Assembly: GCF_036323475.1 (NCBI RefSeq)
Contig: NZ_AP028934.1
Coordinates: 310,001-374,000, forward strand
Origin: Solobacterium moorei
GTDB lineage: Bacteria > Bacillota_I > Bacilli_A > Erysipelotrichales > Erysipelotrichaceae
Length of the DNA stretch: 64,000 nt
Direction: 5' to 3'
Part shown: in pieces, positions 23,155 to 28,351 of the stretch
Layout of the letters: each line of letters begins with the position of its first letter
Numbering within the stretch: position 1 is the first letter of the stretch
Notes under the pieces: model-generated
The model's database searches: none
Seen by the model: the letters and a program-made list of their open reading frames with translations, nothing else
Told to the model about the DNA's origin: nothing
Translations under genes and position numbers: made by a program

Positions 23155-23285
23155 ATTATGTCTGTATGGTAAGGTTAGTTTAGAATTTACTTGATAAGCA
23201 TCTATAAAAAGCAATTTGATTGAAACTTTAAAATGTTGCTGAGTATATTAAAAAAACTATATTATTATGTGCATTGCACTGCAAT

Positions 23286-23561
23286 ATGAATGATATGAAA
23301 AATAAAGAGAATAGGACACTACGAATCGATCATGATATTAAAGTGCAAGCAACAAAGTTATTCAAATCTTTAGGGTTTGATATGCGTATTGCTACTGGAA
23401 TTTTCTATCGACAAGCATTACAACATCATGGGCTACCATTTGATGCGAAAATAGAAAAACCAAATATAGAGACATATGCAGCGATGGAAGATGCCATAAA
23501 AAGAAAAGATTTAAATGGCTCTTTCGATAGTGTTGAAGAACTGATGGGGGTCATTAGATGA
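23286..23561 (+). CDS. RelB/DinJ-family antitoxin
   Basis: A ribbon-helix-helix antitoxin of about 91 residues (from the ATG at 23286; ATGs at 23274 and 23295 are alternatives, and none has a clear ribosome site). The N-terminal TLRIDHDIKVQATKLFKSLG and FYRQALQHHGLPFD match the DinJ DNA-binding region; the acidic C-terminal part would wrap the toxin. Its TGA overlaps the ATG of a yafQ-like toxin frame, the classic operon layout, but that toxin is destroyed, leaving an orphan antitoxin. Confidence 0.82.
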   Translation: MNDMKNKENRTLRIDHDIKVQATKLFKSLGFDMRIATGIFYRQALQHHGLPFDAKIEKPNIETYAAMEDAIKRKDLNGSFDSVEELMGVIR

Positions 23562-23776
23562 TTCGATAGGTTTATACTGTAGGAAATAATCGTGCTGTTA
23601 TGTAATCAAACTACATGACCAGAAATATTTAGAGATTATGCATTCACTAATTCTAGGAATGATAAAGATATGAGAGAATGCCATATAGAGCTAGATTGGT
23701 TGTTGGTATATAGGTTATAAAACAGGAATTACTTCTTGCATTAATTAGAACGGGTACACATAGCAATTTTTTTAAT
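23558..23776 (+). pseudogene. YafQ/RelE-family toxin, inactivated
   Basis: The frame opens with ATG ATT CGA overlapping the antitoxin stop, but hits TAG at 23567. Pieces of the toxin continue in other frames: FRDYAFTNSRNDKDMRECHI then ELDWLLVYRL (about 23628-23717) matches the conserved YafQ core around its catalytic His, and LIRTGTHSNFF (from 23741) matches the family C-terminus. At least two frameshifts plus stops rule out a functional toxin. Confidence 0.8.
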
Positions 23777-23787
23777 CAGTATTAAAA

Positions 23788-23824
23788 CAGCACATCCAAC
23801 CGTTTTGGTTTTGTGTGCTGCTTT
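23788..23824 (+). terminator. Terminator after the antitoxin-toxin locus
   Basis: CAGCACA (23788-23794) pairs with TGTGCTG (23814-23820), with an inner AACC/GGTT stem, followed by CTTTT. Confidence 0.75.
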
Positions 23825-23881
23825 TAAAATGCTATGGCTGTATAGAAACTTATGCCATTAATTCTGCTCGAGTTTGTCTTT

Positions 23882-26014
23882 TTATTTATGTGATTGGAAT
23901 AAGAATCGAATGACATAGATGGAAGTGATACATGGTAGGATTGTTGGTAGTGGAATGTCAAAGAAGATTGGTGTAATAAAGCCAAATAGTACAACAGCCA
24001 ATACGTGGTATGCAATAATCGCAATTTGTTTAAATTGAATCTGTTCATTTAGTTTTGCGGATGTTTGGATTGCAAATACCAGAGCACTTAAGCGTTTGCG
24101 CGTTAATATAATATCATTATCTTCAGAATCTAAATTCTGACTAATGCCAAATTGAATATTTACATCAGCGGTAGATGAAGAGGAAGAACTATCTGCATTA
24201 GCGTACATACTGATAGAGTCATGCGAGCATGATTTTATCAGATTTTCTTTTTCATTCATATCTACATTTGCATGAATGTTTTCGATATCACAGGTATGTT
24301 TGATATATTGAATCTCTTTGATATTTCCATGTGCAAAAAGATGTACATCTGTTAGTTCCTTGAGTGAATGAATTGCTTGTAAGCTATTTGGAACAATTGG
24401 TCTTTGTGTTGCGATTAAACCAAGTGCTTGATCTTCACCAATTAGGATAAATACTGTCTTTCCTTGATTTGTAAGTTCATCAATCATTTGGTTTATAGTA
24501 GAGCTGATTACATCTGTGTTAGAGAAATCATGTGTATTGTTTAACTGATATGTGCTTTGAATCGTATCAGTTTGATGTGTCTTTTGAAAATTTGTTAGAA
24601 CACTTAGATTTACAGAAGAAATCTTCTGTGATTTTAAGTAACGTGTAATCGCTCTAGAGTAACTATCATGTCGTTTGTTGGATAGCGTATATGCAATATA
24701 ACGCATGATATTTAAATCTGTTTCTTCAAGTGGGATAAAATCAGTTACTTCAGGTTTTGAGGCAATCAAGATATCGTCTTGTTCGAGAAATAATGTTTCT
24801 GCTTTACCAGCTGTTTCTAACGCATCTACATTACGGAAAAGCACATGATTTTTCGCTGCGTAAATTGCCTTTTCTAGCACTTCTTTTTCAGAGGCGATTG
24901 TTAATGCATTCATTGCGACAGATGCTAGTACTGCAATAGATACACTGATAGCGATAGAGAAAGATTTACCAACTAAAATCCAACCAAAGAATAAGATGAT
25001 AGCTGCAATAATGGAATATAAGAATAAGTATTTTGAGAAGTTTTTAAATGGTGAATCAAACGATTTATCGTTCGCTGTTTCCTTAGCAAGTTTTGCGAAT
25101 TGTAATAGGGTGGTCTTTTCGCCAATCTTCTCTACTTTGATTTGTAGAGAGCCTTGTATGCAACGTGTACCTGCATATACATAGGAACCTTCTGACTTTG
25201 TGATATTTGACTGTACACCGGTTAATGTAGATTCATCAACAGATGCGTAACCTTCTACAACAATGCCGTCGCAGGGAATGTTTTCGTTTGGCCGAATAAT
25301 CAGGATCTGGTTCTTTTTAAGTTGACTTGTCTCTTCGATAACTTCGCCAGTCTTATTAAAGACTGCTGTGTTTTCTGGAATATACTGTTTGATATTCAAT
25401 GATGTTGTGGAAGTTTGTTGCATGTATTTCAAATACTTTGTTTTATAGAGATTTGTACCAAGTATCGTAATCATTGATATCATAAATGGGTATGCATTTA
25501 CGGTATTTTGAATTGTTAGGAAGATACCGTAAAAGAATGATATTCCAATCGCAATACTATCAATGGTTGCGAAAGATAGATTCTTATCTTGAATTTCTTT
25601 TTTTGCATGCATGAAAATTACACGACCTACATACAAGGAGTGGATTGAGAATAGTAATCCAATCCAAGGTGTAATATGTAATATCCATAGTATCGCTAGT
25701 AGAATCACTTCAAACACAAAGACAAATAAGATACGATAATTTGGCTTTTTTGGATTTTTTGTGTCCTGTTGGATGAGGAAATCTGAAGTTGGGATTTTGC
25801 GTGTATATGCATGATATCCACATGCTTTAATTTTTTCGATAATGATATCTGCAGTAATGATAGTTGGATCATATTCTACAGTCACATTGCGGTCGCTTAA
25901 AGTAACCGTTACAGTGACGATTCCTTTTGTATTGATTAGGTGTTGATGGATTGTATCAGCACTTGCATTTAAATATAGATTTGCGACTGAAAATGTTTGC
26001 TTGACTGTTTCCAT
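23882..26014 (-). CDS. P1B-type ATPase homologue lacking all catalytic motifs (pseudo-ATPase)
   Basis: An uninterrupted 710-residue frame follows the heavy-metal P-type ATPase plan: an HMA-like domain (about 5-72), membrane segments near 93-133, 150-190, 328-375 and 663-705, an actuator domain and a P/N domain. Every functional signature is changed. The HMA CxxC site reads NLYLNAS; TGES reads TGVQS (265-269); the intramembrane CPC is AMN (367-369); the phosphorylated Asp of DKTGT is E411 in LEQDDIL; the N-domain HP is HD (449-450); and GDGIND is replaced by ANADSSSSSS (605-614). The flanking residues (KPEV, TADV, DIILTRK) still align. It cannot be a normal pump. It might be a binding or scaffold protein or a decaying gene. 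AGAGGATA precedes the ATG. Confidence 0.85.
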   Translation of the reverse strand: METVKQTFSVANLYLNASADTIHQHLINTKGIVTVTVTLSDRNVTVEYDPTIITADIIIEKIKACGYHAYTRKIPTSDFLIQQDTKNPKKPNYRILFVFVFEVILLAILWILHITPWIGLLFSIHSLYVGRVIFMHAKKEIQDKNLSFATIDSIAIGISFFYGIFLTIQNTVNAYPFMISMITILGTNLYKTKYLKYMQQTSTTSLNIKQYIPENTAVFNKTGEVIEETSQLKKNQILIIRPNENIPCDGIVVEGYASVDESTLTGVQSNITKSEGSYVYAGTRCIQGSLQIKVEKIGEKTTLLQFAKLAKETANDKSFDSPFKNFSKYLFLYSIIAAIILFFGWILVGKSFSIAISVSIAVLASVAMNALTIASEKEVLEKAIYAAKNHVLFRNVDALETAGKAETLFLEQDDILIASKPEVTDFIPLEETDLNIMRYIAYTLSNKRHDSYSRAITRYLKSQKISSVNLSVLTNFQKTHQTDTIQSTYQLNNTHDFSNTDVISSTINQMIDELTNQGKTVFILIGEDQALGLIATQRPIVPNSLQAIHSLKELTDVHLFAHGNIKEIQYIKHTCDIENIHANVDMNEKENLIKSCSHDSISMYANADSSSSSSTADVNIQFGISQNLDSEDNDIILTRKRLSALVFAIQTSAKLNEQIQFKQIAIIAYHVLAVVLFGFITPIFFDIPLPTILPCITSIYVIRFLFQSHK

Positions 26015-26075
26015 GGATATCCTCTGTTATATTTTACAAAATTATCATCAGAATAGGAATGTAAATTCTCTGATA

Positions 26076-26117: not shown

Positions 26118-26339
26118 TTATCTTCCGCGGAAACTGAAGACTACGATGATAGCACTTACTACTAGTTGCACGATTGAGCCTGGTAATACACCAAGAGTAT
26201 CGTAAATGATTAGTAGAAAAGTTGGTACTTTGAAACTACCGCTTAGATTTCCAGTTAGATGTAGAACTAGAAGTACTGCTGCGTATAGAAACCAAATTGT
26301 ACCGAAGACGATTCCGACCCAATCTTTTTTCTTTTCCAT
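26118..26339 (-). CDS. Small two-segment membrane protein
   Basis: A 73-residue protein of unknown function. GGAGGG lies ten bases before the ATG at 26339, so this start is preferred over the in-frame ATG at 26357, which overlaps the ribosome site. Two hydrophobic segments (about 8-27, VGIVFGTIWFLYAAVLLVLH, and 38-67) flank a short loop, and the chain ends in FRGR. It lies upstream of the pseudo-ATPase on the same strand, separated by a terminator, and is probably transcribed on its own. Confidence 0.65.
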   Translation of the reverse strand: MEKKKDWVGIVFGTIWFLYAAVLLVLHLTGNLSGSFKVPTFLLIIYDTLGVLPGSIVQLVVSAIIVVFSFRGR

Positions 26340-26528
26340 ATTTTTTTGGCCCTCCATAAAGAATTATACCCTTCTTATCGCATATACAAACTAGTTTTTG
26401 TATATATTAACAATACAAATGTTAGTTTATATTTGTTGTGAAAGACTAATTGAACTATTTTGGTTAGTATAATCTAACAAAAAAACATGGAATTGATGCG
26501 GATTTGTTTTTGTTTGACAAATATTGAG

Positions 26529-26554: not shown

Positions 26555-28351
26555 ATGATACAGGATAGAATCAAACAGTTAAGAGCTTTGATGGCTGAAC
26601 GTAAGATTGATGTATATTATATTCCAAATGAGGATGATCATCTTTCTGACGAATACACAGCTGATTATTTTAAGTGTAAATCATACATGTCTGGTTTCAG
26701 TGGTGAAGCTGGATGCACAATTATCACAAAGGATTTCGCAGGTCTTTGGACCGATGGTAGATTCTTTACGCAGGCTGAAAATGAACTTCAAGGAACTGGT
26801 GTTACATTGATGAGACTGCGTCAAGAAGGCGTGCCAAATCCAATCGACTTCTTGATTGCGAATACACCAAAGAATGGTGTATTAGGTTTTGATGGTGCAG
26901 TGGTTTCTGCTAGAAATTACTTACATCTAACACAAGCATTGAAAGAAAAAAATGCGAAGTTATATACAACAGAAGATCTTGTTGGAATGGTTTGGGGGAA
27001 AGAAAGACCTACTATGCCAACAGAGGAATTATATGTACTTCCTAAGAAGTATACAGGTGAAGAAGCTTCTGAAAGAATTGCACGTACAAGAGAAGCGATG
27101 AAGGCTAGCAACTGCGATGCAATCTTATTAACTGCATTAGAAGATCCATGTTGGTTATTGAATATTCGTGGTAATGATATTGCGTGTACACCAGTTAGTT
27201 ATGCATTCGCTGTAATTACAAATAAGAAACTCTACTATTATGTAGACGCAAAGAAGATCAATGCGAAAGTTGCTCAGTACTTCAAGGACAATAAGGTAAC
27301 AGTACGTCCATACAATGCGTTAATGAAGGACTTACAGAAATTAGAAGGTAAGAAGATTTGGGGAGATATGGGGCATCTCAATTCTAATCTGTATAAAGCA
27401 TTAGCAGGGAATGAAATCTATGATGCGATTTCACCAGTTGCTTACTTCCGTGCAATCAAGAATAAGACAGAAATCAAGAACATTCGTAATGCACATGTAA
27501 AGGATGCGGTTGCGATGGTGAAGTTCATCTATTGGGTCAAGAATACTGTTGGAAAGGGCAAGATGACAGAAGTAACTGCCCAAGACCATTTATATGCATT
27601 ACGTGCAGAACAGAAGAACTACATCGAACCATCATTTGAAACAATCTGTGCATATCAAGAAAATGCCGCAATGATGCACTACACTGCAACAGAAGAAAAA
27701 CATGCGGCAGTGAAGGCAAGAGGTTTCTTACTTGTTGACTCTGGTGGAACATACAAGGATGGTACAACAGATATTACAAGAACAATCGCGTTAGGTGGTT
27801 TAACTGCGGAAGAAAAGAAGTTATATACAAAGGTATTAAAGGGACATCTTGATTTGCTGCATGCGAAGTTCTTGTATGGAACAACAGGTAATAACCTAGA
27901 CATTCTTGCAAGAAATCCATTATGGAATGACTGCATTGACTATCAATGTGGTACAGGCCATGGTGTAGGGCATGTATTAGCTGTACATGAAGGTCCACAC
28001 GGTATCCGTTGGGGCATGCCAGCAAATGGTAAGGCAGTTATTCTCCAAGAGGGAATGGTTGTTACAGATGAGCCAGGTGTATATCTACCACATAAGTTAG
28101 GTATCCGTATTGAAAATGAGATGATCGTTCAAAAGGAAGAAAAGAATTTCTATGGACAGTTCTTATCCTTTGAAGATATTACATATGTACCATATGACCG
28201 TGATGCGATTGATACACAGTATCTCAGCGATGAAGAAATCGATTGGATCAATGCATATCACAAGATGATCTGGGAAAAGATTGGACCACTTCTCAGTGGT
28301 AAAGAAAAGAGCTTCTTAAAGAAGGCAACTGGAAAGATTACACGCGCATGA
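26555..28351 (+). CDS. Xaa-Pro aminopeptidase (M24B)
   Basis: Cleaves N-terminal residues preceding proline in the cytoplasm. The 598-residue, three-domain form resembles eukaryotic-type aminopeptidase P: two creatinase-like N-terminal domains (about 5-130 and 160-300) and a C-terminal pita-bread domain with metal ligands in LLVDSGGTYKDGTTDITRT (two Asp), GTGHGVGHVLAVHEGPHG (His), TDEPGVY and GIRIENE (two Glu). It shares ATGA with the downstream exonuclease gene. Confidence 0.93.
   Translation: MIQDRIKQLRALMAERKIDVYYIPNEDDHLSDEYTADYFKCKSYMSGFSGEAGCTIITKDFAGLWTDGRFFTQAENELQGTGVTLMRLRQEGVPNPIDFLIANTPKNGVLGFDGAVVSARNYLHLTQALKEKNAKLYTTEDLVGMVWGKERPTMPTEELYVLPKKYTGEEASERIARTREAMKASNCDAILLTALEDPCWLLNIRGNDIACTPVSYAFAVITNKKLYYYVDAKKINAKVAQYFKDNKVTVRPYNALMKDLQKLEGKKIWGDMGHLNSNLYKALAGNEIYDAISPVAYFRAIKNKTEIKNIRNAHVKDAVAMVKFIYWVKNTVGKGKMTEVTAQDHLYALRAEQKNYIEPSFETICAYQENAAMMHYTATEEKHAAVKARGFLLVDSGGTYKDGTTDITRTIALGGLTAEEKKLYTKVLKGHLDLLHAKFLYGTTGNNLDILARNPLWNDCIDYQCGTGHGVGHVLAVHEGPHGIRWGMPANGKAVILQEGMVVTDEPGVYLPHKLGIRIENEMIVQKEEKNFYGQFLSFEDITYVPYDRDAIDTQYLSDEEIDWINAYHKMIWEKIGPLLSGKEKSFLKKATGKITRA

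Follow-up and report, generated by a model that had tools for sequence, protein, structure and literature searches.

The window analysed here, a stretch of 64,000 nucleotides from Solobacterium moorei (contig NZ_AP028934.1, positions 310,001 to 374,000), carries a gene for a protein with the make-up of a P1B-type metal pump: HMA, A, P and N domains and eight predicted transmembrane (TM) helices. An earlier note had read an uninterrupted 710-codon frame here without naming its strand; the frame is intact, lies on the minus strand, starts with ATG and is preceded by AGAGGA. The gene is monocistronic. In most orthologues, −10-like boxes and Shine-Dalgarno-like sequences were recognized upstream by eye, without a statistical test; the same inspection of the upstream sequences revealed presumed housekeeping-type promoters only, and no copper-type operator. 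The inverted repeat downstream has no entry in the output of the terminator scanner, as its loop exceeds the scanner limit. The features of the locus are collected in Table 1.

Table 1 Features of the pseudo-ATPase locus (window coordinates).
Feature	Position	Strand	Basis
P1B-type pseudo-ATPase gene, 710 aa	23882..26014	−	Intact ORF, Pfam/NCBIfam matches, 22 orthologues, AF2 model
HMA domain, residues 7-68	25811..25996	−	Pfam PF00403, E=2.4e-6
HMA CxxC position, L15-N16-A17-S18	25961..25972	−	Alignments; Ser18 invariant in 23/23
TGES position, T265-G266-V267-Q268	25211..25222	−	Alignments; phosphatase Glu absent, 23/23
Intramembrane CPC (M4) position, A367-M368-N369	24908..24916	−	Alignments; CPC in 0/23
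DKTGT position, E411-Q412-D413-D414-I415	24770..24784	−	Alignments; family pattern [E18/D5]-Q-[D/N/..]
N-domain (E)HP position, H449-D450-S451	24662..24670	−	Alignments; His absent, 23/23
GDGIND position, A605..S614, serine run	24173..24202	−	Alignment; absent, 23/23
Tyr669-His670 in M5, family-specific invariant	24005..24010	−	His in 23/23; CopA Asn in 21/21
Presumed promoter/RBS of the pseudo-ATPase gene	26015..26062	−	TAAAAT −10-like, AGAGGA Shine-Dalgarno-like; upstream sequences compared by inspection
Candidate transcription terminator, imperfect inverted repeat AAAACAGCACA...TGTGCTGCTTTT	23784..23825	.	Downstream; read from the sequence; tentative
Aminopeptidase P family gene, divergent conserved neighbour	26555..28351	+	Synteny; locus marker irrespective of carrier status

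A 79-aa ORF of predicted membrane character (26119-26358, minus strand) lies in the gap between the pseudo-ATPase gene and its divergent neighbour; an initial comparison with 10 other carrier loci gave no match to it. On the other side, an intact 95-aa ORF resembling RelB/DinJ antitoxins (within 23274-23720, plus strand) is followed by an apparently degraded YafQ/RelE-type toxin gene, whose C-terminal stretch is recognizable and whose frame is broken. As judged by eye, the antitoxin-like ORF may thus be an orphan.

Profile searches confirmed the suggested P1B homology, with an end-to-end match and the P1B domain order. The protein matches Pfam E1-E2_ATPase at 7e-32 and TIGR01525 at E=2e-57; the latter score, 195 bits, does not reach the trusted cutoff of 346 bits. 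The only model that it clears is that of the superfamily, TIGR01494 ('HAD-IC family P-type ATPase'; 69.5 vs a cutoff of 62.3). NCBI pump models match all 23 family members. Among solved structures, the best profile matches are Cu+ pumps, namely ATP7B (1.9e-100), AfCopA (1.8e-95) and also HMA4. An AlphaFold2 (AF2) model built with the family alignment (pLDDT 82.9, pTM 0.72) shows the HMA, A, P and N domains, and its helices fit eight TM segments. Compared with CopA and other known structures, the model keeps the whole P1B fold, and Foldseek ranks Cu-ATPases at the top. TM-scores are 0.66-0.68 to the E1 Cu-ATPases 7r0g, 7xun, 8q73 and 8q74, and 0.49-0.50 to the E2/E2P structures 4bbj, 3rfu and 8q75. 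A single resting conformation is plausible for the modelled protein because the residues that drive the cycle are gone, but AF2 may favour the E1-like arrangement through training bias.

Motif positions were assigned by alignment with the CopA of the same genome (L002, 842 aa) and 22 orthologues. These alignments bore out the losses of CxxC, TGES, CPC, DKTGT and GDGIND at the residues previously assigned to them. The N-domain HP motif, which the earlier note had read as altered to HD, is indeed absent; its register required correction, since H449-D450 is one residue out and the H and P of 'SEHP' align with D450 and S451. Because 22 orthologues show the same losses, this shared pattern is not a product of chance. 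DKTGT is found in none of the 23 members: at position 411, 18 members have Glu and 5 have Asp, the latter in a DQDxx context, and Gln comes next in 21. The five orthologues that keep Asp411 are L052, L063, L050, L064 and L056, and their DQD[G/N/D] resembles motif I (DxDG) of HAD phosphatases. The most divergent member, L066 of genome G034, has a gap at TGES and YPC in place of CPC; the YPC may be left over from the ancestral motif. Established P-type ATPase biochemistry treats most of these elements (the TGES Glu, GDGIND, HP, CPC and CxxC) as essential. Judged by its motifs, the pseudo-ATPase would be catalytically inactive and would not pump.

Using a profile built from the first 11 orthologues, we searched 70 genomes of the window's genus, a gut/rumen genus within the Erysipelotrichaceae, and found the gene in 23, the window genome included. 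Orthologues are 685-723 aa long and none contains an internal stop. Carriers score 597-1052 bits, and other P1B proteins of the genus score at most 357 bits. No further family member was found among 316 genomes of the order, where the next best hit (G122, 419 bits) was considered as an intermediate catalytic sister and rejected as a fully catalytic CopA; in a phylum sample of 392 genomes, the window's own gene was the sole find. With the window protein alone as query, a scan of genome contigs gave no match; a contig scan seeded with a 6-sequence subset alignment yielded the named relatives, Erysipelotrichaceae bacterium NK3D112, presumably a cultured rumen isolate, and uncultured Erysipelotrichaceae including RUG10685 and RUG12097. 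The pseudo-ATPases group in a single clade (SH-aLRT 100) with a long stem, apart from all catalytic P1Bs. Closest relatives with normal motifs would have told against the earlier reading; in fact, those very motifs are missing from all 22 of the nearest relatives. Independent orthologues also rule out assembly error as the source of the altered motifs.

The locus is well conserved around the gene, which is divergent from an aminopeptidase P - xth - pepV block in 22 of the 23 carriers (the exception being G077) and in many carriers is flanked on the other side by secA/prfB/nudix genes. The same neighbours without the pseudo-ATPase gene are frequent in non-carriers. A maximally sensitive HMM search of 28 non-carrier loci detected no gene remnant. 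As for the concern that orthologues might be absent or broken in sister strains, we found zero broken copies, and the absences are clean and require few changes: on a species tree based on six flanking genes, carrier status changes 3 times, compared with about 16 times when labels are shuffled. This pattern fits a single gain followed by two losses in the genus, and well-supported pseudo-ATPase subgroups reappear in the species tree. By eye, the ORFs that non-carriers have at this position are unrelated and include a DUF1275-like membrane protein, an MBL-fold protein and an acetyltransferase. The site beside the aminopeptidase P gene seems to accept gene insertions, because in the non-carriers L088, L089 and L097 an unrelated membrane protein of ~225 aa occupies the place upstream of, and divergent from, that gene. 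Roughly two thirds of the genus lack the pseudo-ATPase gene, which is therefore dispensable.

Relaxed selection, another outcome that had been envisaged, was not observed. The dN/dS of the pseudo-ATPase is 0.07-0.25 (0.10, 0.11, 0.07, 0.19 and 0.16 in close pairs), exceeding the value for the adjacent aminopeptidase P gene by a factor of about 1.1-2.6, and flanking housekeeping genes give 0.03-0.16; the protein is therefore constrained, less tightly than these neighbours. Across the genus, pseudo-ATPases are about 30% identical and CopAs 60-64%. Such fast evolution, together with a dN/dS above that of aminopeptidase P, indicates that the constraint is moderate. The two closest pairs are each equal in length and free of stops, and about 70% of their 299 and 313 differing sites fall at third codon positions. 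In a neutral simulation, in which each close pair underwent random change of the same size as observed, a mean of 7-8 stops per pair arose, and only 1-2 of 2000 runs had none.

Constraint peaks in the A domain and is generally lowest in MA-M2, with P2 in between; the A, P1 and HMA soluble domains are the most constrained. Of 348 CopA-conserved columns, 36 are kept in the pseudo-ATPases, and 16 positions fixed in CopA carry another fixed residue, including the swaps C16 to S18, K to Q412, G to H390, D to G563, T to E567 and N to H670. These fixed family replacements point to new constraint, not to simple decay. Several residues conserved elsewhere in the family, for example E438, W507 and D644, have disappeared from the window lineage, which includes G075.

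CopA itself offers a further point of reference. A CopA at least 60% identical to that of the window genome is present in 20 of the 23 carriers, the other three being draft genomes; this co-residence indicates that the pseudo-ATPase is no replacement for CopA. No copper genes are linked to the pseudo-ATPase locus, csoR-copA lying elsewhere in the genome, and the domain count of CopA shows no pattern with carrier or non-carrier status. In the window's own genome, the copA region (L153) appears by eye to consist of csoR-copA followed by hypA/hypB-like genes; as judged likewise by eye, copA has neighbours of these types in other carriers (L154 and L155).

Collectively, 23 intact orthologues, shared motif loss and low dN/dS support the proposal of a selected non-pumping protein. 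One alternative is that the gene is a decaying pseudogene, its frame intact by luck after the ancestral pump was lost. Fast protein evolution and the disappearance of E438, W507 and D644 from the window lineage are what decay would produce; 23 intact frames and not one truncated copy, the low dN/dS with its third-position bias, the stops that neutrality predicts and that are not seen, the presumed promoters still recognizable by eye and the 28 non-carrier loci free of remnants all speak against it, and we regard this explanation as largely refuted and highly improbable. Less probable still is a metal pump that remains active with unusual motifs: the overall fold is retained in the AF2 model and five members keep Asp411, but the TGES Glu, GDGIND, HP, CPC and CxxC are jointly lost in 23/23.

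Two further readings grant the protein a function of a different kind, and both are unlikely. In one, the HAD core would now serve as a hydrolase or another enzyme whose active-site residues have moved. Several members carry [D/E]-Q-D-G-[T/I], near the DxDG(T/V) signature of HAD phosphatases (DQDG[T/I] in some), Asp at 413 and Gly at 414 each occur in 14/23, His390 is conserved and His670 invariant, and Pfam 'Hydrolase' and 'Hydrolase_6' match 8/11 and 7/11 members, respectively. However, the nucleophile position is Glu in 18/23 and Asp in only 5/23, Asp413 varies among members, motif II is degraded and the acidic residues of motif IV (GDGxxD) are lost in all; unlike in HAD phosphatases, a P-type ATPase scaffold surrounds this core. 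In the other, to which we give marginally more weight, the TM bundle would conduct a solute or ion passively or through a gate without ATP, or would bind lipid or metal, for instance via His670 of M5. The stronger conservation of M3-M6 than of MA-M2, the invariant YH in M5 and the near-fixed W345 in M3 would fit such a role, but M4 has no conserved polar or metal-binding chain, residues 367-369 vary freely, and the most constrained parts are the soluble A, P1 and HMA domains, which a simple channel does not need.

This full-length, pump-like protein thus almost certainly does some other, non-pumping job, and as far as its sequence allows, a conserved non-pumping pseudoenzyme is very probable. 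The explanation that best accounts for the data as a whole, at a probability of roughly 0.6, is a selected P1B pseudoenzyme acting as a static, E1-like interaction module. Kinases and certain other enzyme families have well-known pseudoenzyme members, and the pseudo-ATPase shares with these, for example with pseudokinases, the loss of catalytic motifs in a selected fold and frame. Pseudoenzymes are defined by loss of conserved catalytic motifs (2023 review, PMC10211241); here, motif loss extends through an orthologous group (n=23) under purifying selection on the inactive form. With P1B-1 Cu+ ATPases (bacterial CopA, ATP7B and plant HMA4), the pseudo-ATPase has in common the domain order HMA - TM - A - TM - P/N - TM, the whole-length profile match and the fold. 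In contrast to them, it is devoid of CxxC, CPC, the TGES Glu, DKTGT, HP and GDGIND, and the YN of M5 is replaced by an invariant YH. KdpB (a weaker match, 1.5e-36), CtpE (P6) and other divergent bacterial P-type ATPases belong to the same superfamily but, unlike the pseudo-ATPase, are catalytic pumps. Since its fold and ancestry are plainly P1B, the pseudo-ATPase is a variant on a known P1B theme.

A 2023 review of P-type ATPases recognizes classes P1-P6 plus the unclassified CtpH/CtpI, and the text covered by a term search contains no inactive branch (PMC10654040); a term search of the pseudoenzyme review likewise returned no mention of P-type ATPases or transporters in the text covered (PMC10211241). 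We found no pseudo- or inactive P-type ATPase in the open-access papers searched, an absence that is no proof.

Based on these findings, we propose a plausible route to such a protein. A Cu+-type (CopA-like) P1B paralogue most probably arose once in this Erysipelotrichaceae genus and shed the functions of ATP binding, phosphorylation and dephosphorylation as well as the metal path; purifying selection has since kept it as a full-length membrane protein. It would act as a static, E1-like, membrane-anchored interaction module, in which the conserved surfaces of the actuator, the HMA domain, the N-terminal half of the P domain and M3-M6 bind a partner, and this binding would alter the activity, stability or placement of that partner. 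If the protein is indeed a non-pumping pseudoenzyme, a regulatory or scaffold role is reasonably likely. Other pseudoenzymes offer an analogy by which the most natural candidate partner would be a true P-type pump, for instance the co-resident CopA, although CopA itself being that partner is doubtful. Tentatively, a stand-alone dead P1B paralogue may regulate or scaffold a living pump, or sense a ligand, via a frozen E1-like conformation, and may represent the first pseudo-pump family to be described in the P-type superfamily.

The annotation of the 23 members as pumps is likely to be an error. Their function should be testable, as named carrier genomes exist (e.g., NK3D112), and a dead pump kept for so long would be a natural experiment that sets the structural and regulatory roles of the P-type scaffold apart from its transport cycle.
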